Below are positions 5,071 to 30,303 of a DNA stretch of 33,010 bases, in pieces. The notes under the pieces are model-generated. The model ran no database searches. It was not told where the DNA came from and saw only the letters and a list, made by a program, of their open reading frames with translations. Position 1 is the first letter of the stretch, and each line of letters starts with the position of its first letter. Origin of the DNA: a virus; IMG/VR virus record IMGVR_UViG_3300025141_000421, positions 1-33,010 of that record; one strand, 5' to 3'. The position numbers and the translations under genes were made by a program.

Positions 5071-6619
5071 CTTCTTCGCCTTCCGATGCTACGGGGTCTG
5101 GTTTCTGCAACTCTAGTTGATGGGCAGTGAAATCCAAAGCTGAATCCACTATGTCCGAAGCATCCGATTCTTCGATCTCAAGGAACAGCGACAGAAGCTT
5201 TCCGCCAGCCTCTGGTCCGATCTGTCCATTGCCAACGCTCTGAAGAATCTGAATCGCTGCTTGGAGGCCGCCAACGCTGTCGAGCAGTTTGTTTCTTTGC
5301 TCCAGATCATCGGGATCAATGTCCGAGAAGCCAGCCTCTGCTCGAATCTCACCGCGAGTGATGTCACCGTTCGCTCGCATCGCAAGCAAATTTCTCCACT
5401 TCAATGCGGGATCATTGGGGGCACAAGCCTCCCACCAGATAACAAGAGGCTCGGAACTTCCTATCATCCCTGTCATCACGCCGCCAAGCATCCGCAGGAA
5501 GAGGTTCACTCTTTTGCAGAATCTCTCCTCAATCTTGGCTGCTTGAGCATAGCCGCCGATGTTGACGGGCTCACCGATAATGTACGGATGGACTCCAAAC
5601 GCTGAGAGGATCCTGGTTCTGGCTTTGTCTTCCGACTTATCCCAACCCATCTCCCTTTGAGTCATTGAGAGGGGTCGGATGTTTTCGATAAGCCCATCAA
5701 CAATCGCTGGAGATCCGTAGTTGGCGACCCCGCCCATGACCTTTCTAATTGCGCCCATAACTTGTCGTCGCTGACCAGGGGAAAGTCTGGGTCGGATTCC
5801 TGCGGGGACATCTGGGTGAGGGTCTTTTCCCATCTCAACGATGACAGAAGGGAAGACCCCATTCTCAAAGAAGTTTTCTTGACTAGTTTGGATATGGTCA
5901 TCGATTCGGATCGCTTGTATTTGGGCAATAGCGGGGGCCGTTGCCGATTTCATGTCCGCAGGGTTCGGCAGATGTGCGAAGCCCACAACCTCCCGCTCAA
6001 GAGGCTCAGGCTTGCTGGTGGGGTTACTAGGATCCTTGATCCAAAATTTGGAGAAAGGCCCGTTAGTGTGATCGGGAGTAATCCAAGTAGTCGGAACTGA
6101 ATAGAATTCATACGGCTGTTCTGGATTCCCAGTCTCGCCACCGATCACATAGCCCCAACCAGTAAGACACAGATTCGCAATGAACGAGTAAACAAAACTG
6201 AGCCCATCCTGCAGAGGATTGGGCTTAACCATGCACGAATGCAAAGGATGATCCGGCTGGATCTCAAGATTACCTAGAGATGCGGAGTATTTGTACTGGA
6301 GAGGAATAGTATCAAGCGACTTGATTCCCGGGATCTGCCGATCCTTCTCAGAGGGCGACACGTTCTTTCGAGCAACGTTGATGTCCTGCAAAGACCCTTC
6401 GCTCGAAATAGCATGAATCGCAGCATAGACCCAACCCCGAAACAGAGAATAGCTAGTACGAGCACGACTATTCTCAGAATCAGTCTGCCAGTTCCCGAAA
6501 GAATTTGAGCCCAGGATCTTATCCATCCTCTCCGGGGCCATTGCTTTCGACCGGGCCTGATCAATGATCGTAGAGGTAAGATTCTGCTCTTCCTCCATTG
6601 CCTGCTGAAGCGCTCTCAC
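5030..6619 (-). CDS. Portal protein (HK97-like family)
   Basis: This ~529-residue protein should form the dodecameric ring at the capsid vertex through which DNA is packaged and to which the tail joins. Recognisable portal features (phage_portal, PF04860) are an N-terminal GWVYAAIHAIS segment, HPLHSCMVKPNP, a wing region with FYSVPTTWITPDH, the stem/crown stretch FFENGVFPSVIVEM, then SEDKARTRILSAFGVHPYIIG and a C-terminal NKLLDSVGG. It ends in a Glu-rich tail (about 17 residues). The frame is open to 6688, but the GTG at 6619, two bases after the upstream stop and preceded by AAGGAGAGTAGCC, is the likely start. Gene order is unusual: connector genes lie between TerL and portal rather than after the capsid gene. 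Confidence 0.9.
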   Translation of the reverse strand: MRALQQAMEEEQNLTSTIIDQARSKAMAPERMDKILGSNSFGNWQTDSENSRARTSYSLFRGWVYAAIHAISSEGSLQDINVARKNVSPSEKDRQIPGIKSLDTIPLQYKYSASLGNLEIQPDHPLHSCMVKPNPLQDGLSFVYSFIANLCLTGWGYVIGGETGNPEQPYEFYSVPTTWITPDHTNGPFSKFWIKDPSNPTSKPEPLEREVVGFAHLPNPADMKSATAPAIAQIQAIRIDDHIQTSQENFFENGVFPSVIVEMGKDPHPDVPAGIRPRLSPGQRRQVMGAIRKVMGGVANYGSPAIVDGLIENIRPLSMTQREMGWDKSEDKARTRILSAFGVHPYIIGEPVNIGGYAQAAKIEERFCKRVNLFLRMLGGVMTGMIGSSEPLVIWWEACAPNDPALKWRNLLAMRANGDITRGEIRAEAGFSDIDPDDLEQRNKLLDSVGGLQAAIQILQSVGNGQIGPEAGGKLLSLFLEIEESDASDIVDSALDFTAHQLELQKPDPVASEGEEDAEEEDEEQEERE

Positions 6620-9340: not shown

Positions 9341-10801
9341 TCATGTGGGAGAGCCAACCTCTTTAGACGAGGGGCCAACTTCATCAACTGAGGAACTGCT
9401 GGGGCCCTGAGATTCTGTAGAAGCCCCAGAAGGCCCTATAACAATAACGGATTTACTCGAAGCCCCTGTATTTTCTACTGCCGCCTGATCCGGTCCCACG
9501 AAAGAAACAGACTTAGCCCAAGGGAATTTGACTAGACCCGTTGAGCTAGAACTGGAGCTGCTGCTTTGACTAGAAACTGAGGATGAGGAAGACGCACTCT
9601 GGCTTGATGATGAAGAAAAAGAAGAACTCGAACTCGAACTCGACGACGAAGATGAAGAGCTGCTCTGGCTAGAGCTAGACGAAGATGATACAGAGCTAGA
9701 GCTAGAACTACTTTGACTGGAGCTACTATGACTAGAACTACTTTGACTGGAGCTACTATGACTAGAACTAAGCGATGATGAGGAGCTACTCTGAGAACTT
9801 ACAGACGAAGATGAGGAGCTGCTCTGGCTAGAACTAAGCGATGATGAAGAACTGCTCTGGCTAGAAACAGACGAAGATGAGGAGCTGCTCTGACTAGAAA
9901 CAGAAGAGGAAGAAGAACTGCTCTGGCTAGAAACAGACGAAGATGAGGAGCTGCTCTGACTAGAAACAGAAGAGGAAGAAGAGCTAGAACTACTCTGACT
10001 AGAAACAGAACTAGAGCTTACTGAGGATAAAGAAGAACTACTCTGAGAACTTACAGATGAAGATGAAGAGCTGCTCTGACTAGAAACTGAAGATGAAGAA
10101 GAACTACTCTGACTGCTTATGGATGACGACGAAAAGCTACTCTGGCTGGAACTGGAGCTAAAACTAGAGCTACTATGGCTAGAAACAGACGAAGATGAGG
10201 AGCTACTCTGAGAACTTACAGACGAAGATGAGGAGCTACTTTGGCTTGAAACTGAGGAAGATGAGGAGCTACTTTGGCTTGAAACTGAGGAAGATGAAGA
10301 GCTGCTCTGACTGCTTATGGATGATGAACTAGAGCTGCTCTGACTAGAAACAGAAGAGGAAGAAACAGACGAACTACTCTGACTAGAAGAATCACTCTGA
10401 CTAGAAGCCGATGAAACAGACGACAAAGAAGAGCTGCTCTGACTGCTTATGGATGATGAACTAGAGCTGCTCTGACTGCTTATGGATGATGAACTAGAGC
10501 TGCTCTGACTGCTTATGGATGATGAACTAGAGCTGCTCTGAGAACTTACAGATGAAGATGAAGAGCTGCTCTGACTAGAAACAGAAGAGGAAGAAGAACT
10601 GCTTTGAGAACTTACAGATGAACTGCTTTGACTAGAAACAGATGAAGATAAAGAACTGCTCTGGCTTGAGACTGAAGAGGAACTAGAACTGCTTATGGAC
10701 GAAGAAGACGAAGAACTACTCTGACTAGACAAAGACGAAGATGATGAAAAAACCTCTACCAACACATACTGAAGAAAAGGCTGCCAAAGATGGAGCGCCA
10801 T
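9341..10801 (-). CDS. Ser/Gln repeat protein, 486 aa, probable virion fibre or spacer
   Basis: Residues 1-18 are hydrophobic (MALHLWQPFLQYVLVEVF). About 400 residues of Ser-rich repeat follow, mostly the 11-residue unit VSSQSSSSSSS, with Ile or Leu sometimes replacing Val and occasional His or Phe. A ~66-residue C-terminal part carries a second repeat of about 20 residues: KSVSFVGPDQAAVENTGASS, KSVIVIGPSGASTESQGPSS, then SSVDEVGPSS. No known fold is recognised. Serine codons are mixed (TCN and AGY), so the amino-acid pattern seems kept rather than being just a DNA repeat. The ATG overlaps the upstream stop (TAATG) with GGAG nine bases before. A long flexible or extended spacer in the adsorption apparatus is a reasonable guess; cell wall or glycan-coated functions are alternatives. 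Confidence 0.72.
   Translation of the reverse strand: MALHLWQPFLQYVLVEVFSSSSSLSSQSSSSSSSSISSSSSSSVSSQSSSLSSSVSSQSSSSVSSQSSSSSSSVSSQSSSSSSSVSSQSSSSSSSISSQSSSSSSSISSQSSSSSSSISSQSSSSLSSVSSASSQSDSSSQSSSSVSSSSVSSQSSSSSSSISSQSSSSSSSVSSQSSSSSSSVSSQSSSSSSSVSSQSSSSSSSVSSHSSSSFSSSSSQSSFSSSSISSQSSSSSSSVSSQSSSSSSSVSSQSSSSLSSVSSSSVSSQSSSSSSSSSVSSQSSSSSSSVSSQSSSSSSSVSSQSSSSSSSVSSQSSSSSSLSSSQSSSSSSSVSSQSSSSSSLSSSHSSSSQSSSSHSSSSQSSSSSSSVSSSSSSSQSSSSSSSSSSSSSSSFSSSSSQSASSSSSVSSQSSSSSSSSTGLVKFPWAKSVSFVGPDQAAVENTGASSKSVIVIGPSGASTESQGPSSSSVDEVGPSSKEVGSPT
9541..10747 (-). repeat. Degenerate 33-bp coding repeat array
   Basis: About 1.2 kb made of 33-bp units encoding 11-residue Ser/Gln blocks. Most copies differ at the DNA level. 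A block of three identical units stands at 10441-10473, 10474-10506 and 10507-10539 (plus-strand unit begins gactgcttatggatgatgaa). Such arrays readily gain or lose units, so length probably varies between relatives. Confidence 0.9.
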
Positions 10802-15181: not shown

Positions 15182-15857
15182 TTGTCCTGAATTCAGTATC
15201 AATCGGAGCATCCTGCGTTTCAATCCTGGGAACTTTCGCTTTGGCTTCCTCAATCCTACTCTTCAGATCCATCAACTCTTCTGTATTCATCCTTGACCAA
15301 TCACCGCTGGAGATCGTCGTTTTGTGATCGTGATCAATCTTCCCCTTCACCTCCACCTTCTTCGCTGCCTGGATCCCTGAGATCTTATCGAGATCCGCGA
15401 GAAGTTGCCGAGCTACAGAAAGAAGAGACGAATCTCCTGCTTTCCCTTTGACTTTCTTAGTGGTAATCTCCGCAAGTTGAGTTCCTTTCCCATCGCAGAC
15501 TGTGCAAGAGCTGCTCTCCTCTTTCTCTGGATCAAAAGTCTTCCCCACCCCTTCACAGTTTGCACACTTCTCTTGTTTGTACTGAGTGCTAATCTCTTCT
15601 TCGGGCTGTTGCGAGAGATGAAATGCGTTGATCGTTTCCCTAAGAAGAGATTCCTTCCGAGCAGTAGCTTTTGCTCGCTTATCCTCCAAGGTCTCATCCT
15701 GCTCCGCCACAAGACGCTCCGACATCGCCCTCAGCCCTGAACTAACCTGGGATGTCGTAACACCCAAAGTAAGAGCAATATCTTTCTGACTATGCCCCTC
15801 AAGCCAAAGCTCCTCGATCCGGGCTCGCCTTCTAATCAATGCGATGTCTTTAGGCAT
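15171..15857 (-). CDS. Small-terminase-like DNA-binding protein with DnaJ-type zinc finger
   Basis: The 228-residue protein has an N-terminal helix-turn-helix (residues ~10-48, ARIEELWLEGHSQKDIALTL then GVTTSQVSSGLRAM), the kind that small terminases use to bind the packaging site. A charged helix follows. It then has a zinc-binding module with CANCEGVG (Cys98, Cys101) and CTVCDGKG (Cys118, Cys121), like the CxxCxGxG repeats of DnaJ. The C-terminal part holds SLLSVARQLLADLDKISG, a helix often seen near the end of such proteins. Its gene precedes terL with one small gene between. Small-terminase function is inferred from the helix-turn-helix and location; a transcription factor is the main alternative. 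Confidence 0.68.
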   Translation of the reverse strand: MPKDIALIRRRARIEELWLEGHSQKDIALTLGVTTSQVSSGLRAMSERLVAEQDETLEDKRAKATARKESLLRETINAFHLSQQPEEEISTQYKQEKCANCEGVGKTFDPEKEESSSCTVCDGKGTQLAEITTKKVKGKAGDSSLLSVARQLLADLDKISGIQAAKKVEVKGKIDHDHKTTISSGDWSRMNTEELMDLKSRIEEAKAKVPRIETQDAPIDTEFRTNDE

Positions 15858-16428
15858 GTTTACCTATCCTAATGATTTTCCCAATTTCATACTCAGGATC
15901 ATGGGTAACAATAATAAACTGAATCCCCAACTCCTCCGCGAGGTCTTCTATCATCTGTCGGGCGTAGGGTCTGTATTCCTTTGAGAGAAACTTGAAGGGC
16001 TCATCCAACACAAGCAACTGCCGCAGTGATTTTCTCCTGAATCTCAGAGACGCAACACGAAGAGCAAACGCCACAACATCTACCACCCCGCCGCCAACTG
16101 CGTCTAGGGGAGAAATCTCAACGTCTCCTCGGCAAAGCCGAAACTTGACCTCTGTCTTGTTTCTCTTCTTTTCGAACTGACATTGAAATTCATACGCATC
16201 CGGGCCGAAGATAGCCTGAAGGCATCTAGATACTATAGCAGCAATTTGCTTGTGGGCTCTCTCCTGAATGTCCTTCGCAAGTTGAGAGACAATCTCTACC
16301 GCTTCTTCCGCTGCTTCTTTGTCGGCACTAGCTTCTTCCCAGACCTTTTGGGATACCTCCAAAGATCCGACAGCAAAGTGCTTCGCATCAAGAAGCTTCT
16401 CGCGACGATCCTTCCATTCTCTCATCAT
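15850..16428 (-). CDS. SbcC/Rad50-like ATPase, C-terminal lobe as separate protein
   Basis: 192 residues: a helical part (1-~65), then the C-lobe of an ABC/SMC-type ATPase. It has a signature-like segment DAVGGGVVDVVAFALRVASL (from residue 109), Walker B LLVLDEPF (138-145) followed by a D-loop, and the switch histidine in IIVTHDPE (His176). It has no Walker A. The matching N-lobe is encoded at 17558-18571, with the nuclease gene and a coiled-coil gene between, so the two chains must pair to make an ATP site. The ATG overlaps the coiled-coil gene's stop as ATGATGA. The 3' end overlaps the small-terminase-like gene by 8 nt. Confidence 0.82.
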   Translation of the reverse strand: MMREWKDRREKLLDAKHFAVGSLEVSQKVWEEASADKEAAEEAVEIVSQLAKDIQERAHKQIAAIVSRCLQAIFGPDAYEFQCQFEKKRNKTEVKFRLCRGDVEISPLDAVGGGVVDVVAFALRVASLRFRRKSLRQLLVLDEPFKFLSKEYRPYARQMIEDLAEELGIQFIIVTHDPEYEIGKIIRIGKHA

Positions 16429-16673
16429 CCAACTCTCTCGTCATTTTTCCATTTTTCTTCGAACTCATCCAGAGCTTTCTGAAATAATTCCTCAGACTTC
16501 GCCTCCTTGTCTCTAAGCGAAGCGAGCGCCACTTCTGCCTCTTCCATTGAATCGACATCCCAAAGCTCCTTGAGTTTTTTGAGAAGCTCGTCCCGAGCCC
16601 CCTCGGCTTTCGCCTGCTCGATCTTCTCTTGATCCAGCTTCCTCTTCAGCCGATTATACCGATCAATCTCCAC
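16425..16673 (-). CDS. Short coiled-coil protein between SbcD and SbcC C-lobe
   Basis: About 82 residues, nearly all coiled coil (EIDRYNRLKRKLDQEKIEQA, RDELLKKLKELWDVDSMEEA, EEVALASLRDKEAKSEEL-type heptads). The frame is open to 16742, but the first part would then be translated across the SbcD 3' end. The GTG at 16673, nine bases after GGGGG, is my preferred start and overlaps SbcD by 11 nt. It probably supplies the returning half of the Rad50-like coiled coil, linked physically with the C-lobe protein; this is inference from order and composition. The start is uncertain. Confidence 0.58.
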   Translation of the reverse strand: MEIDRYNRLKRKLDQEKIEQAKAEGARDELLKKLKELWDVDSMEEAEVALASLRDKEAKSEELFQKALDEFEEKWKNDERVG

Positions 16674-17565
16674 TATCAATGGCCCCCAAAAGCAGTTTCT
16701 TTGTCTTGGGTTTAATCTCTTCCCTCGATGCCCATCGCTCAACAGATGAGCGAAAGTCCTCTGACCCCGTCTCCGCCCCCTTCAGCCCATCCAAGAATTC
16801 CGCCATGTCCGGAATTGCTCTTTCCTGCTGAATCAAAGCATCGCTGAAGAGATCCCCAGAGCAGTCCAGGAAATGGCGGGCAATCTTCCCATCCTCATAA
16901 AAAATCCCCACACTGGGGCTGTGGGCTCTCTCCGGCTGGGTCCTGCGGATCAAAGCCCCGCAATTGAAAATCGTGCATCCATTTTTAGAATTCGACTCAA
17001 ACGGTTTATGGTTATCTCCGAAAGCCGCTGCATCAAATCCTCGAAACTTCTTTCGCACCTGAGGATAAAACGCATCTTCTGGGGCTCCGGGATATGCCGT
17101 ATCCTTTGAGCAAACGAACATATGAACAACAGCCAGGTGATTCCCAAGAGCCATTGGTTTTTCGATTTCTGTGCCCCAAGGAAATCCCCAGACATTCCAA
17201 TCAAAACCAAAAGACAGAGGCTTTCCTGGTTTTGTGTAAGTCAGTTTTCCCGCTTCCACTAAAGTCCAGAATCCAGTAAACTTAATATCCGAAAGAGAGT
17301 GGTATCTCAGATCGTGCTGCCCGGGAACAGCAAAGCAAAAAGGCATGTGCTCAATCGCAAAGTTAATCAGCCTCGGAGAAGGATTCCATTTGTGAAAAAT
17401 ATCCCCCGCCACAATCACAGGAACCGCCAAGTCCTTTTTCAAAGCGGCAAGCTCCAGAAGAGGCCGCTTCATTGCCTCGTACCAGTCGGGCTCCGCCGAA
17501 CGGGCGGCAGGAGGAGAATCCGAAAGATGGATGTCTGAGCAAATAATCGCAACTGGGCTAGACAT
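16663..17565 (-). CDS. sbcD: SbcD/Mre11-like metallophosphoesterase nuclease
   Basis: The ~300-residue protein is the nuclease partner of the SbcC-like ATPase and should trim DNA ends and hairpins during recombination-dependent replication. Calcineurin-type motifs occur in order: IICSDIHLSD (motif I, DxH), VIVAGDIFHKW (motif II), PGQHDLRYH (in place of GNHD), LAVVHMFV, and AAFGDNHKPF (in place of GHxH). The frame is open to 17601. The ATG at 17565 has GGAGGAGAGTTGC just ahead and fits the family, giving an 8-nt overlap with the upstream ATPase gene. The C-terminal ~70 residues are helical and probably bind the coiled coil. Same operon as both ATPase halves. Confidence 0.86.
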   Translation of the reverse strand: MSSPVAIICSDIHLSDSPPAARSAEPDWYEAMKRPLLELAALKKDLAVPVIVAGDIFHKWNPSPRLINFAIEHMPFCFAVPGQHDLRYHSLSDIKFTGFWTLVEAGKLTYTKPGKPLSFGFDWNVWGFPWGTEIEKPMALGNHLAVVHMFVCSKDTAYPGAPEDAFYPQVRKKFRGFDAAAFGDNHKPFESNSKNGCTIFNCGALIRRTQPERAHSPSVGIFYEDGKIARHFLDCSGDLFSDALIQQERAIPDMAEFLDGLKGAETGSEDFRSSVERWASREEIKPKTKKLLLGAIDSGD

Positions 17566-18571
17566 GCAACTCTCCTCCACAAAGGGGACACTGGCCTTCA
17601 CATTCCTCTTTTATTTTCGCAGCAAGCTTCTCCAGATCCTTCTTTGACTCAGCCGCTTGGGCAATCGCTACTCCAGTTTTGTTAATCAATTGCTCAAGAT
17701 CCTGCCTAAGAATCCGAACCGCTTCAAAGTTCTTTTTCTCTTTCTCAGGAAGCTCCGGCAGATCTCCGATCAAACTATCTTGATTCTCGACGATCTGAGC
17801 AGTATGGCTTTCGAGTCTGTCTGCTTGCTTCTTTGATTGACCCCAGAGCTTGGCCGCTTCGCATACTTTCTCCCTGTCCGCCACAAGCTCCTTGAGCCTA
17901 AATGACTCATTCCAAGTTTTCTTCATAGCATGATAGTCAGACTCAAAATCCTGAGCATCATCTCTATGTTCCTCCCGCTCCTTGTCCAGCTCCAGAACTT
18001 TGTCCAGCTCTATGACGAACTGATCAACAAACTCCAAAGCCTCGACATTCTCCTTGCATTTTTTCAGACTCTCCTGAGCCGCTTCTTCCTTCGGCCCCGC
18101 TTTTCGGAGATAAGAAGCCACATACGCCATCGCATCATCAATTGCCCCAAGATCAGCGACGTTGTTTAGCTCCTTTGCTGCTTCCCCAGGAGTCAAAGAA
18201 AGCCAGAAAGGCGGATCCATCTGAAGCTGAAAATTCACATCGTCTGTTTGAAAGAGATCCTCTACTTGCTGGGGAGCATCTGAGCCAAACGCTTTTAGCT
18301 CCTTCCCGTCTACTTTGTAGAGATTCTTTGACGCCCCCCTCCGGATTCTAGTAACGACATGATCATCTACCTTGACTCTAGCTCTTCCTTCCTTGGCCCC
18401 CTCTCGAACAAAACCATCTCCCCGGGGCTTATTGTGAGCCACCCACCGCAAAGCCCTCACAAGAGAAGTCTTCCCCGCATCGCTAGGGCCGACTATTGTC
18501 GTGACTTGATCGAATTCTATTGTTTCGTCTTCATGTGCCTGGAAGGCAAAGACTTGCATGCGTTCTATCAA
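17558..18571 (-). CDS. SbcC/Rad50-like ATPase, N-terminal lobe ending at zinc hook
   Basis: 337 residues. The opening MIERMQVFAFQAHEDETIEF is typical for Rad50/SbcC/RecF-type N-lobes, and a Walker A, IVGPSDAGKTSL, stands at residues ~26-37 (Lys34). The lobe's Q-loop region lies near MDPPFWLSLTPGEAAKEL. From ~155 to 325 the chain is coiled coil. It ends with CPLCGGELHV, where Cys328 and Cys331 form a zinc-hook motif just six residues before the stop. No C-lobe follows in this gene; it is at 15850-16428. The start is TTG at 18571 (matching the family N-terminus) overlapping the resolvase stop; ATG at 18559 is the alternative. Probably acts with the SbcD-like protein. Confidence 0.85.
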   Translation of the reverse strand: MIERMQVFAFQAHEDETIEFDQVTTIVGPSDAGKTSLVRALRWVAHNKPRGDGFVREGAKEGRARVKVDDHVVTRIRRGASKNLYKVDGKELKAFGSDAPQQVEDLFQTDDVNFQLQMDPPFWLSLTPGEAAKELNNVADLGAIDDAMAYVASYLRKAGPKEEAAQESLKKCKENVEALEFVDQFVIELDKVLELDKEREEHRDDAQDFESDYHAMKKTWNESFRLKELVADREKVCEAAKLWGQSKKQADRLESHTAQIVENQDSLIGDLPELPEKEKKNFEAVRILRQDLEQLINKTGVAIAQAAESKKDLEKLAAKIKEECEGQCPLCGGELHV

Positions 18572-19041
18572 AATTCATACTTCTGTCTTAGAAACTCTGC
18601 GATTAGTAAAGCATCCGCTGTTGTTTGAGTAACCTTTCCAACTTCCTTAGGAATCTCGGGAAACAAGTCCCTTGCCAATTTTGTCAGCCTTCGCTTCCGA
18701 TCAGGATACTCCTCGTTTTTGATTCTGGGAATTCCCAACTCTCTCTGCCACATAACGGGCCTGACATCCTCCCAGTTCATCCCAGAAGCGACCAAGCATC
18801 CCCTCAGGAACCCGTAATTCCGCCCAAAGGAAAACATTCCCACGTGGCCTGCTCCCGGGCGGGAATGAACTATCTCAATGCATCCCCTCACGGGATTCGC
18901 CCCGACGCCGGGACAGATCAACTCCCAGACCTTCTCTTCCTCCTCGGGCATTTTATCTAAGAGAAGTACTTCTCCCGTCTTCGTCATCCGACAGATGCCG
19001 CCCTTCTTCCCCGGGTCCAGCCCCAGATATTCCATCATCAC
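18568..19041 (-). CDS. RuvC-like Holliday junction resolvase
   Basis: 157 residues with the RNase H-like fold of phage RuvC-type proteins: YLGLDPGKKGGICRM with Asp9, CIEIVHS with Glu56, and a C-terminal TADALLIAEFL with Asp143. A basic stretch (RKRRLTKLARDLFPEI) precedes the last helix. It should cut branched DNA before packaging or in recombination. Starts at GTG 19041 with GGAGGAACCTG ahead, followed by two in-frame ATGs. The gene shares 89 nt with the 3' end of the upstream gene in another frame. Confidence 0.82.
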   Translation of the reverse strand: MMMEYLGLDPGKKGGICRMTKTGEVLLLDKMPEEEEKVWELICPGVGANPVRGCIEIVHSRPGAGHVGMFSFGRNYGFLRGCLVASGMNWEDVRPVMWQRELGIPRIKNEEYPDRKRRLTKLARDLFPEIPKEVGKVTQTTADALLIAEFLRQKYEF

Positions 19042-19309
19042 CAGGTTCCTCCAAAAATCCAGAAGGCCAAACCCATTGAATCACAGTCTTCCCAGTCTCT
19101 GGATAATACGAAGCAGAGATCTTGGGGTCTGCGAAAGGGATAATCACCCCCGGCTTTAGATCCTTAAATTTATCGGACCTAACCAAAAACTCAATAGAAC
19201 CTACTGCTGTTCGTTTATCCACTTGGGCATCCCAGATCTCCACATCTTCTGGGAATCCTAATAGACTGCCCAAAAGTGCCTTATCAACCATAATCCGTAA
19301 CGCTCTCAC
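18953..19309 (-). CDS. Hypothetical protein, 118 aa, overlapping resolvase
   Basis: Not recognised. A globular first part (MRALRIMVDKALLGSLLGFP, VGSIEFLVRSDKFKDLKPGV, SASYYPETGKTVIQWVWPSG) is followed by a Gly/Asp/Glu-rich tail encoded where the resolvase gene overlaps. The GTG start at 19309 has AAGGAGAAGCC upstream. It overlaps the FEN gene end by 26 nt. Part of a recombination operon, so a DNA-metabolism accessory is likely. Confidence 0.6.
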   Translation of the reverse strand: MRALRIMVDKALLGSLLGFPEDVEIWDAQVDKRTAVGSIEFLVRSDKFKDLKPGVIIPFADPKISASYYPETGKTVIQWVWPSGFLEEPGDDGISGAGPGEEGRHLSDDEDGRSTSLR

Positions 19310-20156
19310 GGCTTCTCCTTTTAGATGAAAACTTTTCCCGAATCGAAGTCATCCCAAGCAAGTCGTGGATCTCTTTCCACTTCTCCTTAGTCATCTCATC
19401 AGGCCGGATCTCAGGAACGATAGTCCCATCAAAGGGGATGCTGACCAGCCTCTTGTTAAACTTCCACAAATCGGAACTCATCACAATCTTGTCATACACC
19501 TTCACGGAAGGTTTGAGATCCCCCCGCAAGTACTTTGCAGCAGTCTTCTCCCCCACTCTCGGAACACCCTCGATGCTATCCGAAGAGCAGCCCGCCAGAG
19601 ACTTCACATCAGACCACTGCAAAGGCTCCAGACCCCATTCTTCGCGGAAGCCATCAGCAGTCAGAAACGCCTTCTTGCTAGGATTCCAAATCCGAACTGA
19701 AGAGCTGAGAAGCTGCCAAAGGTCCTGATCCGCAGCCACAATAGTAGCACGGTCTCCCTTTGGCTTCGATAGACAAACACCCGCAATCAGATCGTCAGCC
19801 TCGTATCCCTTCTGGAACAAAACATTCCTGAATCCAGCTTTGGGGAGCAGCTCCACAGCAAGCCGTTTTATCTGCTCCCTGAGGCTCTTTCGGGATTCTT
19901 TCTCGTCCTCATCCGCTTCTTCTCTCTTCTTCCTTCTAGCCCCCTTGTAGCCGCTTGAAATCTCATTCCGGAGGGGCTTGCCCTTATCGAAGCAGAAGAC
20001 AAAAGTTCCTCCCGGGAATCGGTCGTTCAGCCTCTCAATCTCAGAGAATACTCCGAACGGAACCGATGTGGGAACATCCTGATAGGAGAGATCCGGGATG
20101 GCATGGAAAGCCCGGTGGCACAAGTAATTCGTATCGCAGACTATCAGATGAGTCAT
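19284..20156 (-). CDS. FEN-type 5'-3' exonuclease / flap endonuclease
   Basis: 290 residues, related to the 5' nuclease domain of DNA polymerase I and to T4 RNase H. Conserved acids are visible: LIVCDTN (Asp8), VFCFDKGKPLR (Asp57), GYEADDLIAGV (Glu119, Asp121, Asp122), VAADQDLWQLL (Asp143, Asp145) and CSSDSIEGVPRVGEKTAAKY (Asp193, with the helix-three-turn-helix). YKGARR follows the second motif as usual. Between them a charged insert (residues ~75-95) forms the helical arch. It would remove RNA primers, a job the family A polymerase here cannot do, as it lacks this domain. ATG overlaps the RecA stop as ATGA. Confidence 0.9.
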   Translation of the reverse strand: MTHLIVCDTNYLCHRAFHAIPDLSYQDVPTSVPFGVFSEIERLNDRFPGGTFVFCFDKGKPLRNEISSGYKGARRKKREEADEDEKESRKSLREQIKRLAVELLPKAGFRNVLFQKGYEADDLIAGVCLSKPKGDRATIVAADQDLWQLLSSSVRIWNPSKKAFLTADGFREEWGLEPLQWSDVKSLAGCSSDSIEGVPRVGEKTAAKYLRGDLKPSVKVYDKIVMSSDLWKFNKRLVSIPFDGTIVPEIRPDEMTKEKWKEIHDLLGMTSIREKFSSKRRSRESVTDYG

Positions 20157-21277
20157 TGGTACCTGGGTTTTCTATCTATCTCTGTTTCCTTCTCCACCTC
20201 ATTCCAAATCTTTTGAACGAGCAGAAGCACTTCTTCTTCTGCTTCCTGATCCTCGATTTCCCCGATCAATTCTTCCCGGCTGTCCTCTATCCCGAAGTCA
20301 ACCCCCGTATCTATCTTAGAAGTATTGGGGACTTTCTTCCAATGCTTATAAGTAATTAGGAAATCCACGCAAGATCCCAGATCATCGATCCCATAGTCAT
20401 AGAAGATCGGGAAAGAGATTCTCCGATCTTTGCCTGTGAGTCGATTCTTCGTCACCCGAACTTTTGAGGTAACTCCGATGGGCAGTTTCTGGCCCCGGAC
20501 TGACTTCTTTATAGTAGTTCCCAGATCCGCCCAGATTTGCACAGTTGCATAGAATTTAAGGGATCTGCCGCCGCTATGAGTCTTCGAGGACTCAAACAAC
20601 CCCGCCCCAATATTATCCCGCTCCTGGTTGATGATGATCAGGATCGAGCCAGTTTCTCGAAGCCCAGCCAAAACTCTCCGGATGTAGCGGCTGTTTATCT
20701 TAGCTTTCCCATCCCCGTAATCTCCCGTAACTTTCGCAGCATCTCCTTTTTTATGGCGAGTGCCGCGATGCTGCCCGATCTTCTTCCCTTCCGCCTTGGA
20801 GCTGAGGGCATCAAGGGAATCAAGCACATAGATGAACGGCCGCCCCTTGGGCTTCTTTGCCGCATCAATGGCATCGAAGATCGAGAAATAGAAGTCTTCA
20901 ATTTCCTCAGAGTATGACGGCTCGCCCTCATAGATGTGAGGAGGCTCAACCCTATCCGCGACTTTAGAGCCAAAGAACTTGCGGAAATCCATCAAAGCCC
21001 CCTGCTCGGCATCATCAAAAATCAAACGATAGAAATCGAAATTGGGGTTGATGACAGCTTCCGCGAAGCAGGTCCCAGCCAGGAAAGTCTTGCCGCTACC
21101 GCTTGCCCCGATCAAGAGGGCATAGGTTCCTTTGACAAATCCGCCCAGCCGATTGTCAGAAAGGGCTAGGTTCAGCAAAGTAGAGCCAGTAGAGAGCAAA
21201 TCATCCGGCCCAAATGCCGGTTTATCATGAGACGCCATCAAGGCTTTTTTGATGTCTTCTGTTTTCTTCTTAGCCAT
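20153..21277 (-). CDS. RecA/UvsX-like recombinase
   Basis: About 374 residues. The RecA-type ATPase core has TYALLIGASGSGKTFLAG (Walker A), YRLIFDDAEQGALMDF (the catalytic acidic region), FIYVLDSLDALSSK (Walker B), and LIIINQERDNIG with a Q-motif-like loop 2 region after it. It should promote strand exchange together with the ssDNA-binding protein. The C-terminal ~60 residues are acidic and may regulate binding. The frame runs to 21298, but that ATG lies inside the terminator hairpin at 21281-21313. The ATG at 21277 (MAKKKTEDIKK) is the likely start, with only a weak ribosome site. It shares an ATGA overlap with the FEN gene. Confidence 0.88.
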   Translation of the reverse strand: MAKKKTEDIKKALMASHDKPAFGPDDLLSTGSTLLNLALSDNRLGGFVKGTYALLIGASGSGKTFLAGTCFAEAVINPNFDFYRLIFDDAEQGALMDFRKFFGSKVADRVEPPHIYEGEPSYSEEIEDFYFSIFDAIDAAKKPKGRPFIYVLDSLDALSSKAEGKKIGQHRGTRHKKGDAAKVTGDYGDGKAKINSRYIRRVLAGLRETGSILIIINQERDNIGAGLFESSKTHSGGRSLKFYATVQIWADLGTTIKKSVRGQKLPIGVTSKVRVTKNRLTGKDRRISFPIFYDYGIDDLGSCVDFLITYKHWKKVPNTSKIDTGVDFGIEDSREELIGEIEDQEAEEEVLLLVQKIWNEVEKETEIDRKPRYQ

Positions 21278-21280
21278 AGA

Positions 21281-21313
21281 CAAAAACCTGGGCCCCATTT
21301 CTAGGGCCCAGGT
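21281..21313 (-). terminator. Intrinsic terminator between ssb-like and recA-like genes
   Basis: In the transcript, ACCTGGGCCC (21313-21304) pairs perfectly with GGGCCCAGGT (21295-21286) across an 8-nt loop, and TTTTTG follows immediately (21286-21281). This is a textbook 10-bp GC-rich stem plus U-run. It begins 20 nt after the ssDNA-binding protein stop and ends 4 nt before the recombinase ATG, so it would lower expression of recA and everything after it unless read through. Confidence 0.85.
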
Positions 21314-27503: not shown

Positions 27504-27671
27504 CTATTTTGAATCTTTTTTGGGAGGATCTGGGATAAAGCTGTACTTCTTCCTCAACTCGAACATCAGCTCGACAAATTCTTTGGGATTCAGATTCGCC
27601 AACGTTTTCTGAAGACGTTCCTTGTCTTTTTTCTCTAGCCGATGAACCCATTCTTGGAGTTTAAGATTCAT
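27504..27671 (-). CDS. Small protein, 55 aa, coupled to polymerase gene
   Basis: ATG at 27671 overlaps the polymerase stop as ATGA, and TAG lies at 27504-27506. The sequence begins MNLKLQEWVHRLEKKDKERL, continues with PKEFVELMFELRKKYSF and ends PDPPKKDSK. It is helical and highly charged. The overlap and coding-like composition support a real gene. No family recognised; a polymerase accessory is possible from position. Confidence 0.65.
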   Translation of the reverse strand: MNLKLQEWVHRLEKKDKERLQKTLANLNPKEFVELMFELRKKYSFIPDPPKKDSK

Positions 27672-29116
27672 TCCGGGATTTCTAATTCTTGTTTCTCGTG
27701 CCAGTTCTCTCGGCTTCCCTCGGCCTCAATCTCCATAGGAGTTATGATCCAATGCCATTCTTCTCGAAGCCTCATGCACATAATATCGCGAACAAGAGCC
27801 AATACCTTTTCAAGCTCCGCTTCAGGAATATCCAAGATAACGGAGTCATGAATCTGCCCCACAACCAGGGCCTTGAATCCCCGCTGCTTCAGCTCTTTCA
27901 CTATCTGGGTTAGGCTCCAAAGCAGACAATGAAAAGCAGCCCCCTGGACTGCGTAATTGATTACTTCGTTCCGCCGATAGATTCCCTGGCAGACGAAGCC
28001 AGTTTTCATCTGAAACCAGCCCCGCTTCTTGTACTTATCCCACCAATAATCCCGCCATTGGTCATAGCGAGAGAATCTCTCTTTCCAGAAGCGGTTCTCC
28101 ACCTTCTCGATATGCTTCTCGTAGGCCCCCAGAGAGCTGATGCCCTTGGATGCTAGATGAGCATAGATAGAGCTGCTCCCAGCTCCTACACAGGGCACAC
28201 AGCCCCCGCCATTAGATGATTCCCCCGATCCCTCGCACGCGATGCAAGGGATCTCTGGGAGGTCAGCGATTCTATCCCAGAGGCACTTGGCAACGCTCTT
28301 CCACCAATCGCCGTAAAATTCGGCAAAAACAAAGTTCGATTTGGCTTCGAACCGTGCTTGCTTGCTGACTTGATCAGGTTTGAGAGAGAAGCACTCGACA
28401 GCCATGTCCTTGTGCAGATCATGTCCCGTGCGGATGTAATCCAGCATCGTCGGATCTTTGTGATAGCACGCCGCGATCCTGACTTCGAGAGATGAGTAAT
28501 CAACTTCAACGAAGACGTTCCCTTCTCGGGGAACGAATGCCCTGCGGATCATCTTTCCCAAGCGGGGATCTCGAACAGGGATGTTCTGGAAGTTCGGATT
28601 GGAAGAGTTGGAGCGATAGGTAATCGCTCGATTCAATCCGAAGGATGGGTGCAGGAATCCATTCTGGTCAGCTTCTCTGATCAGGCCCTGAAGATAGGTG
28701 CTTTCCATCTTCCTGAGCTTCTTCAGATTCAAGAACGGCTTGACGAAAGGATCTCCGCAAGCCATCAGTGCGTCTTCGCTGGTATCCGGCTTTCCTGTGG
28801 CTGTTTTCTTCTTGGCTTCGTACATTCCTCTTTTGCCGAAGAGGATCTCCCCTAGCTGGTCCCCAGAAGCGATATTTGCTTTCTCTCGGAACCGCTTCTT
28901 CCATGCCGCCCAGATCTCGGTTTCTTTCAGCTCCGCTTCGATCTCTTCCGCTTTTTGGCAAGCCCGTTTGGTAGTTCGATCTAGGTAATCCATGTCTAGG
29001 CGAATGCCCGCCGCCTCAACCAATGAAAGGGCCTCTTGGCCCTCATGGAAGATCTTGTACGCTTCTTTGGTTGGGGAAATCAAAATTGGCTCCTCTGCTT
29101 CATTGCCAACTCCCAC
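27668..29116 (-). CDS. Family A DNA polymerase (polymerase domain only) with zinc-finger-like insertion
   Basis: 482 residues. Signature elements of the Pol I palm, fingers and thumb are present: SLVEAAGIRLD, YRSNSSNPNFQNIP, motif A VEVDYSSLEVRIA (Asp206), a divergent motif B RFEAKSNFVFAEFYG (Arg255, Lys259, Tyr268), and motif C GQIHDSVILDI (His423, Asp424; Ser replaces the usual Glu). Between motifs B and C stands CIAC (291-294) and CVPC (306-309), a likely zinc-binding insertion. There is no exonuclease domain; that is encoded by the upstream gene, overlapping by 37 nt in another frame. The start is a GTG at 29116 with a poor ribosome site, so coupled re-initiation is likely. Confidence 0.9.
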   Translation of the reverse strand: MGVGNEAEEPILISPTKEAYKIFHEGQEALSLVEAAGIRLDMDYLDRTTKRACQKAEEIEAELKETEIWAAWKKRFREKANIASGDQLGEILFGKRGMYEAKKKTATGKPDTSEDALMACGDPFVKPFLNLKKLRKMESTYLQGLIREADQNGFLHPSFGLNRAITYRSNSSNPNFQNIPVRDPRLGKMIRRAFVPREGNVFVEVDYSSLEVRIAACYHKDPTMLDYIRTGHDLHKDMAVECFSLKPDQVSKQARFEAKSNFVFAEFYGDWWKSVAKCLWDRIADLPEIPCIACEGSGESSNGGGCVPCVGAGSSSIYAHLASKGISSLGAYEKHIEKVENRFWKERFSRYDQWRDYWWDKYKKRGWFQMKTGFVCQGIYRRNEVINYAVQGAAFHCLLWSLTQIVKELKQRGFKALVVGQIHDSVILDIPEAELEKVLALVRDIMCMRLREEWHWIITPMEIEAEGSRENWHEKQELEIPE

Positions 29117-30303
29117 TCCAAGAGAGCATCCAGGCCCCCATAGTGCAGCAATTGCGTCATATCCATCTCATAAATCCGATTCCCGCCATTTCCGCCTTCT
29201 GCTTGGAAGTAGCTCTTTGCCACCTCATCGTATCTTCGCTGCTTAGCGGATCCGGAGTAGCCGAGCAGAGCGAATGCCTGGAATTTGACGCTTGTAATCG
29301 AACGCCTGTTATCCAAGATATGAGCAGCAAGAACTGTATCCCACATTATCTTCTTCATCGGCTTCCCGAATTCCGCGATGCACCATCTCTGCTCGAACTT
29401 TGCGTTGGCTGCGATCTTCGGTACATCAGAGAAAAACAACTCCCCCGCCGCTTCCCGGATCTCATCAGTCCAAAGAAAAGAAACTGTTCTCTCCCCATTG
29501 GAGACGGCACAGGAAACGATCTTGCTATCAGAATTATCGGGCTTGAGCCGATCTGTCTCGAAGTCAATCGCGCAGGGATTCCGCTGCCGAATGAACCAAG
29601 AGAGAGCCTTTTTGACTGTTTCTGTTTTCCAGAGAACTCGAATCTCTGAGTCATAATCTCTGGGCTGATCCCAGGGCCTATCTTGCAGAGAGAACGCGGC
29701 CCGAAGATGCCTCTCCCACCAAACTGCTACGACTGGATTGGCCGATTTCTCATTCTCGTCTGAATTGCGGGCTACGAAGTAGGGATCAAAGACGGGGCAG
29801 ATCCAGGCATTCAGCTTCTGGCTAGGCACCTGGAAGCCTGCCCATTGCTCAATTCCCCCAGGAGCCGGGTTCCAGATTCCTCCGATTACGGAGCGAATGG
29901 CGAGGCCGCCCAGAAGGATGATGACTTTGGGTTTCTTCTCTTCGATTGCTTGGAATACATTGGGGCGGCAGAAATCGACTTGCTCATTCCAAGAAGACAT
30001 CTCCTTCGGGGGACGGCAGATCAAAGCATTCGAGAGCCAGCAATCCCGGTTCAGAGAAATCCCTAGCTGATCGGCTTTCCTGCGGAGCAATTGGCTGGAA
30101 GATCCACAGAAGAACCTTCCTTGCTTGTCCTCTTCTGATCTAGGGAAATCCCCTAGAACTAGAATTCCCTTCTCCCCTTTTCCCTGCAACGGGATCTTGG
30201 GAGAAGAGCAGGTCTTGGAGCAGCCGCAGGCCCCGCACTGGGGGAGCTTAGAATTCGCTGGCTTCGATTGCTGGAGAGTAGATGGAGTGAAGAATCCTGA
30301 CAT
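29080..30303 (-). CDS. Uracil-DNA glycosylase-like / 3'-5' exonuclease fusion
   Basis: 407 residues. The N-terminal half has family 4-type UDG layout: Cys23-x2-Cys26, then ILVLGDFPRSEEDKQGRFFC (standing for the GxxPGxxEDxxGxPF motif), ICRPP (Cys96) and FCRP (Cys112). These four cysteines fit the Fe-S cluster ligands. The motif usually containing HP reads FDPYFVAR (Asp173), so activity is uncertain. The C-terminal half is a DnaQ-like proofreading domain: CAIDFETD (Asp247, Glu249), IAANAKFEQRW (Glu304 where Asp is usual) and YGGLDALLEWEL (Asp392). In some phages such as SPO1, UDG, exonuclease and polymerase form one chain; here the polymerase is a separate gene directly after. Confidence 0.85.
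   Translation of the reverse strand: MSGFFTPSTLQQSKPANSKLPQCGACGCSKTCSSPKIPLQGKGEKGILVLGDFPRSEEDKQGRFFCGSSSQLLRRKADQLGISLNRDCWLSNALICRPPKEMSSWNEQVDFCRPNVFQAIEEKKPKVIILLGGLAIRSVIGGIWNPAPGGIEQWAGFQVPSQKLNAWICPVFDPYFVARNSDENEKSANPVVAVWWERHLRAAFSLQDRPWDQPRDYDSEIRVLWKTETVKKALSWFIRQRNPCAIDFETDRLKPDNSDSKIVSCAVSNGERTVSFLWTDEIREAAGELFFSDVPKIAANAKFEQRWCIAEFGKPMKKIMWDTVLAAHILDNRRSITSVKFQAFALLGYSGSAKQRRYDEVAKSYFQAEGGNGGNRIYEMDMTQLLHYGGLDALLEWELAMKQRSQF

Follow-up and report, generated by a model that had tools for sequence, protein, structure and literature searches.

Rad50 is regarded as one polypeptide that forms an unbroken hairpin with a zinc hook at its tip, and the T4 proteins gp46 and gp47 have a role among recombination functions that the phage operon described here fits. 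Non-canonical Mre11/Rad50 systems are known from viruses: Mimivirus R555 and others are Mre11/Rad50 fusion proteins, and for the fusion of Bacillus phage 0305phi8-36 the authors did not see one of the P-loop NTPase segments (PMC3175470). Here we describe a further departure, in the 33,010-base IMG/VR virus record IMGVR_UViG_3300025141_000421 (the window, by which we mean the whole stretch of DNA that was analysed). Its (-) strand carries four genes for what would be a phage Mre11-Rad50 (SbcCD) machine with Rad50/SbcC divided among three chains. It is very probable that this is a natural three-chain Rad50, with the ATP-binding cassette (ABC) head formed from two chains, which we call the N-lobe and the C-lobe, and the hook at a chain end. 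The remaining genes are those of an SbcD-like nuclease and a short coiled-coil protein (Table 1).

Motifs and identity of the four proteins

The N-lobe begins at a TTG codon (18571), and its relatives start at the same residue. It carries Walker A (G28-T35), a Q-loop glutamine (Q117) and one coiled-coil arm, and its C-terminus reads CEGQCPLCGGELHV, with just six residues, GGELHV, between the CPLC hook and the stop; a first-pass annotation of this DNA had noted Walker A, the single arm and the stop six residues after CPLC. The product matches AAA_15 (4.6e-12) and AAA_23 (2e-9) in Pfam and phrog_16465 (1e-29) in PHROGs. Its match to P. furiosus Rad50 chain 1ii8_A is weak (0.045). G28 and K34 are invariant among 64 sequences, and the Walker A pattern is found in 144/145 relatives. 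An AlphaFold model built from a 64-sequence alignment (confidence, pLDDT, 88) led Foldseek to N-terminal SMC/Rad50 chains (1f2u_C at 3e-6, 1ii8_A at 9e-5, and also 1f2u_A). In this model of the lone lobe residues 22-27, the Walker A strand, receive no strand assignment, and confidence falls to 75 there, as would be expected from the ABC fold if the strand needs the C-lobe sheet.

The complementary motifs are on the C-lobe. Its Walker B, LLVLDEP, has invariant D142 and P144 (DEP in 132/145 relatives), and the switch histidine H176 is nearly invariant ([TS]H in 131/145). The same annotation had assigned signature, Walker B and switch histidine to this protein; their placement, the Walker B and the histidine hold, and what fails is a canonical signature, which in the window is VGGG. 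Among the 145 relatives SGGG is the consensus (75), followed by AGGG (19), SGVG (13) and VGGG (9); the signature of the split family is one residue longer than SGG(E/Q), and its serine is V, A or T in many members, the window included. The protein matches phrog_15167 at 5e-21, and a profile of four C-lobes finds as its best matches the C-terminal chains of P. furiosus Rad50 (3qkr_B 3.7e-14, 1ii8_B 7e-14). Foldseek with the AlphaFold model (68-sequence alignment, pLDDT 93.5) returns C-terminal chains as well, 1ii8_B at 9e-7 and 1f2u_B at 1.4e-6. Lobe assignments that were originally read from motifs are thus in agreement with profiles, structure models and phylogeny. All ABC motifs (Walker A, Q-loop, signature, Walker B, switch histidine) are present, spread over two chains, and the ATP site is complete in neither lobe alone.

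The SbcD-like gene has its stop at 16663 and more likely starts at ATG 17565, which overlaps the N-lobe stop by 8 nucleotides, than at GTG 17601, which is also open. Its product matches Metallophos in Pfam at 2.2e-5. Scored for the SbcD/Mre11 set DxH, GDxx[DH], G[NQ]HD, H and G[HD]xH, it has DIH, GDIFH, GQHD and GDNH and carries the metallophosphoesterase motif set. DxH is found in 143 of 145 relatives, GQHD in 99, GNHD in 44 and GDxH in 138; in contrast to classical SbcD/Mre11, then, the relatives mostly have GQHD for GNHD and GDxH for GHxH. The small coiled-coil protein that had been noted before the C-lobe is a genuine open reading frame (ORF): 40 sequences align nearly without gaps and share a conserved G25 and C-x-[ST]-x-x-E-A. 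PHROG searches with it gave scattered single matches only. A 287-residue C-lobe ORF at locus L025 was considered as a coil-C-lobe fusion and rejected, as its N-terminal part lacks coil character and a coil ORF lies in another frame (5550-5792).

Distribution in viruses and bacterial chromosomes

Single-protein scans of viral contigs with the window C-lobe or N-lobe gave no relative; alignment-based scans found them, and pattern scans of IMG/VR returned overlapping sets of 161, 328 and at least 406. From the loci fetched, 178 distinct viral C-lobes were kept, 150 of which (the window included) had 4.5 kb upstream. A separate N-lobe is present at 145/150 of these loci, and at 142/150 the order is N-lobe, SbcD, coil, C-lobe, so that the split, for which a search of related phages had been proposed, recurs together with the nuclease gene between the halves. 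In 142/145 N-lobes a CxxC follows a long helical arm at no more than 30 residues from the C-terminus, the median tail being 6 residues. No ORF among the viral loci matched both lobe models, which bears out the view that the lobes are on different chains, unlike in canonical Rad50/SbcC. Among the 104 complete loci of an earlier set, 31 have a gap of over 200 bp between coil and C-lobe and still keep the coil.

Few cultured phages carry the split, Microbacterium phage Magritte (discussed below) among them. Microcystis phage Mvi-JY20 has the order of the window, and Bacillus phage vB_BboS-125 has N-lobe, AP2 protein, coil and C-lobe, then SbcD. Tunturiibacter phage Tunturi_5 was seen with a C-lobe alone, and the uncultured phage LR745208 with an N-lobe and an SbcD. 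At one further locus (L148:426-2015) the N-lobe runs in frame past a CVLC hook into an apparent HNH homing endonuclease. From this HNH-like fusion and from the AP2 protein between N-lobe and coil in BboS-125, the hook end seems to be an insertion spot. Another contig has a C-lobe (L154:4968-5570), but none of the N-lobe, SbcD and coil was detected in the 11.6 kb of it that were analysed.

The split is also chromosomal, which the first-pass annotation had not known. A Tissierellia contig reads pgsA-cinA-recA-sbcD-N-coil-C-rny-xerC (with pgsA and xerC identified from reading or a domain alone). Of 196 genomes in that class, a C-lobe was strongly matched (E<1e-44) in 15, which are exactly the genomes that have the N-lobe, and most of these have cinA-recA-sbcD-N-coil-C, usually with rny next. 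Across the phylum (348 genomes), the C-lobe was found in 56 genomes and the N-lobe in 57, with 56 genomes having both. The coil protein accompanies almost all bacterial split loci (e.g., L101 5597-5839). In three genomes (G087, G113 and G181) the C-lobe gene is on its own between folD and rny, away from sbcD-N-coil (L210, L211 and L212, with L238, L239 and L237). Therefore, the co-occurrence of the lobes is not mere linkage. Canonical SbcC (TIGR00618, E<1e-20) was found in 0/15 split genomes and in 84/181 others (Fisher p=1.8e-4, to which a clade effect may contribute), and at E<=1e-15 it was found in 2/53 further split genomes, one of them marginal at 3.5e-16. The split form, found in many Clostridia-type bacteria, mostly replaces single-chain SbcC in the genomes carrying it, and in many it adjoins recA.

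In trees of N-heads, of C-heads and of both jointly, all 55 split sequences stand apart from the 18 canonical sequences included (15 clostridial SbcC, two Rad50/SbcC-type proteins from archaeal assemblies, and T4 gp46), with support of 0.96, 0.99 and 0.99, and BboS-125 groups with the bacterial split sequences. Because the trees are unrooted, they give no direction for the split, and we make no claim of a single origin for the phage and bacterial forms. One could imagine an old, separate Mre11-Rad50 branch common to phages and many Bacillota, with Rad50 as a hetero-oligomer whose apex is covalently open, and we hold this as a tentative idea that is rather unlikely. If it were true, opening, exchange or loss of the arms would become possible (compare the armless fusions below), which would offer a route for loading or releasing DNA that is absent from single-chain Rad50.

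Coupling between the chains and competing explanations

Two bacterial genomes (G241 and G489) encode, in one ORF of about 700 residues, an SbcD (1-264), an N-lobe head (335-489) and a C-lobe head (485-680). No arms, zinc hook or coil-like segment were found in these two fusions, and they provide a Rosetta-stone link among SbcD, N-lobe and C-lobe. Moreover, the separate lobes covary. In mean-field direct coupling analysis of 160 paired lobes, with random re-pairing and re-pairing within clades as nulls, N:F20-C:I172 ranks first of all residue pairs, intra- or inter-chain (z 11.6), and N:E134-C:S127 ranks second. The largest inter-lobe scores in the nulls are 4.7-5.8 (random) and 5.0-7.1 (within clades), and F20-I172 then falls to between -1.9 and 4.6; the mean of the top ten is 6.5, against 4.1-4.4 and 4.2-5.5, respectively. 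In the models F20 comes after the N-lobe's second strand, and I172 lies within the strand of the switch histidine. At the root of the arms, N135-151 couples with C47-51 in antiparallel register, and the distance matrices of the two lobes are correlated (r=0.90, against at most 0.25 in permutations). The idea that the pieces act together, as was first supposed, gains indirect support from gene order, unlinked co-occurrence, inter-chain covariation and the SbcD-N-C fusions.

From these data we infer the physical assembly of the chains, their stoichiometry, zinc binding, the role of the nuclease and the coil as second arm. We suggest that the N-lobe chain would supply Walker A and the Q-loop together with the ascending arm and, at the extreme C-terminus of the chain, the zinc hook, and that the C-lobe chain would supply a descending helix of about 75 residues, the signature, Walker B and the switch histidine. 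The coil chain would most likely be the hook-proximal half of the descending arm. N-lobe and C-lobe may then make one ABC head, the Walker A strand inserting into the C-lobe sheet; two such heads would dimerise on ATP, two CxxC hooks would share one zinc, and SbcD would bind the head as nuclease. The machine probably works with UvsX, the gp32-like protein, the 5' exonuclease and the resolvase in recombination-dependent replication and end processing.

Observations on the return arm point both ways. Between the coil and the hook-proximal helix of the N-lobe tail, covariation is 4.5 in antiparallel and 4.5 in parallel register (null up to 3.6), and arm lengths in phages (median 199 up, 168 down) are uncorrelated and match only roughly. 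Bacterial N-lobes are longer (mostly 476-484 residues) with return pieces that are no longer, and their arms exceed coil plus C-lobe helix in length. All of this weighs against a three-chain hairpin. The coil covariation and the longer bacterial arms would suit a different arrangement, with the same head and SbcD, in which the coil has an accessory role and the arm of the N-lobe is either folded back on itself or unpaired; a break in the N-lobe model at 268-275 could be a hairpin, and two distinct viral loci (L069 and L083) have N-lobe, SbcD and C-lobe with no detected coil. However, the coil stays with the module at 142/150 viral and almost all bacterial loci and is constrained in length, the distance from its start to its mid-break appears close to that from the N-lobe break to the hook, and the armless fusions have no coil-like segment. 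An accessory coil is thus an unlikely solution, and the coil protein is likely the second arm.

It is much harder to believe that the lobes are independent and serve different partners, the N-lobe as a RloC/RecF-like ATPase fragment and the C-lobe as an unrelated ABC-like regulator. In Microbacterium phage Magritte the lobes lie 93 kb apart and the N-lobe is without CxxC (L002:5001-6050, L003:284-931), which counts against a joint machine, as does the unlinked state of the lobes in three bacterial genomes. No SbcD was found in the stretches of Magritte that were read. The hypergeometric P for co-occurrence, 9e-23 in the 196 genomes and 2e-64 in the 348, ignores shared ancestry. Against independence stand the exactness of that co-occurrence, the one-chain fusions, covariation across the Walker A and switch strands, the lack of a full ATP site in either lobe and the unformed Walker A strand of the lone N-lobe model. 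Homing endonucleases are a known way for genes to become split, and sequences resembling them at the gap, as a fusion behind the hook in L148 and as the AP2 protein in BboS-125, could hint at an artefact or decay of one sbcC gene, by frameshift, assembly error, split intein or trans-splicing. Yet a 0.9-kb sbcD fills the gap, the frames overlap by a few bases, and the same split at 145/150 distinct viral loci rules out the sequencing error that had been named as a possible refutation. Nor are there intein halves at the chain ends or any extra domain, and six residues after the hook leave no room for an intein. We give this explanation practically no weight and retain the three-chain Rad50.

Operon setting and comparison with described systems

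Transcription on the (-) strand runs through a gp32-like protein, UvsX/RecA-like recombinase, 5'-3' exonuclease, Holliday junction resolvase, N-lobe, SbcD-like protein, coil and C-lobe (Table 1). The frames of adjacent genes share a few bases (TTGA, ATGTCTAG, ATGA), the pattern of a translationally coupled operon.

Table 1. Features of the split Rad50 locus in the window, with the bacterial fusions for comparison
Feature	Coordinates	Strand	Remarks
N-lobe of Rad50/SbcC, ascending arm and terminal zinc hook	17558..18571	(-)	337 aa, TTG start
Walker A GPSDAGKT, N-lobe residues 28-35	18467..18490	(-)	sequence
Zinc-hook CPLC, N-lobe residues 328-331	17579..17590	(-)	sequence
SbcD/Mre11-like metallophosphoesterase	16663..17565	(-)	300 aa from ATG; Metallophos match
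Coiled-coil protein, proposed return arm	16425..16673	(-)	82 aa, GTG start
C-lobe of Rad50/SbcC with descending arm helix	15850..16428	(-)	192 aa, ATG start
Variant ABC signature VGGG, C-lobe residues 111-114	16087..16098	(-)	sequence
Walker B LLVLDE, C-lobe residues 138-143	16000..16017	(-)	sequence
Switch histidine H176 of C-lobe	15901..15903	(-)	sequence
Holliday junction resolvase	18568..19041	(-)	phrog_1770 8.5e-23; same operon; 4-nt overlap with N-lobe start
5'-3' exonuclease	19284-20156	(-)	PF02739 1.2e-23; same operon
UvsX/RecA-like recombinase	20153-21298	(-)	RecA 6e-18, phrog_97 UvsX-like 3e-37; same operon
Armless SbcD-N-C fusions	L351:2655-4754, L352:2086-4170		bacterial genomes

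Elsewhere in the window a family A DNA polymerase also looks split (27668-30303, (-) strand), into a part with a uracil-DNA-glycosylase domain and 3'-5' exonuclease (29080-30303, phrog_17 columns 479-827) and a part with the polymerase domain (27668-29116, phrog_17 833-1237). A gene region at 9341-10801, also on the (-) strand, has long tandem repeats of 33/66 bases at about 9702-10646.

The three-chain form lets one ask whether continuity at the hook, a return arm, or any arms at all are needed, and its chains can be expressed, omitted or exchanged singly without engineering. It would also unite in one machine several PHROG families: 16465 and 1499 match 65/65 N-lobes scanned and 15167 matches 70/70 C-lobes scanned, whereas in PHROGs the three are separate families, annotated exonuclease, unknown and ATPase, and are unlinked as halves of one protein. 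We found no published description of a split-lobe SbcC/Rad50 in the open-licence literature, which is incompletely covered.

Among viral systems there is a likeness to the nuclease of Mimivirus R555, which has the same His-to-Asp change and a His for the Asp of GDxxD, matched in the window by GDNH and GDIFH (PMC3175470). The systems of that study are fusions, however; a separate C-lobe or coil protein is not described there, and the word 'split' is absent from it. With canonical SbcC/Rad50 (E. coli SbcC, P. furiosus Rad50, T4 gp46) the window system shares both ABC lobes, coiled-coil arms, a CxxC hook and a paired SbcD/Mre11 gene, but the canonical protein is one chain, and the window system has three, a hook at a chain end and an SGGG-type signature. 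Structural counterparts are the P. furiosus Rad50 crystals (1f2t/1f2u and 1ii8; 3qkr is also two-chain), in which the lobes form one ATPase head as separate chains. That division was engineered for crystallography, whereas the split in the window is natural and runs through the arms and the hook.

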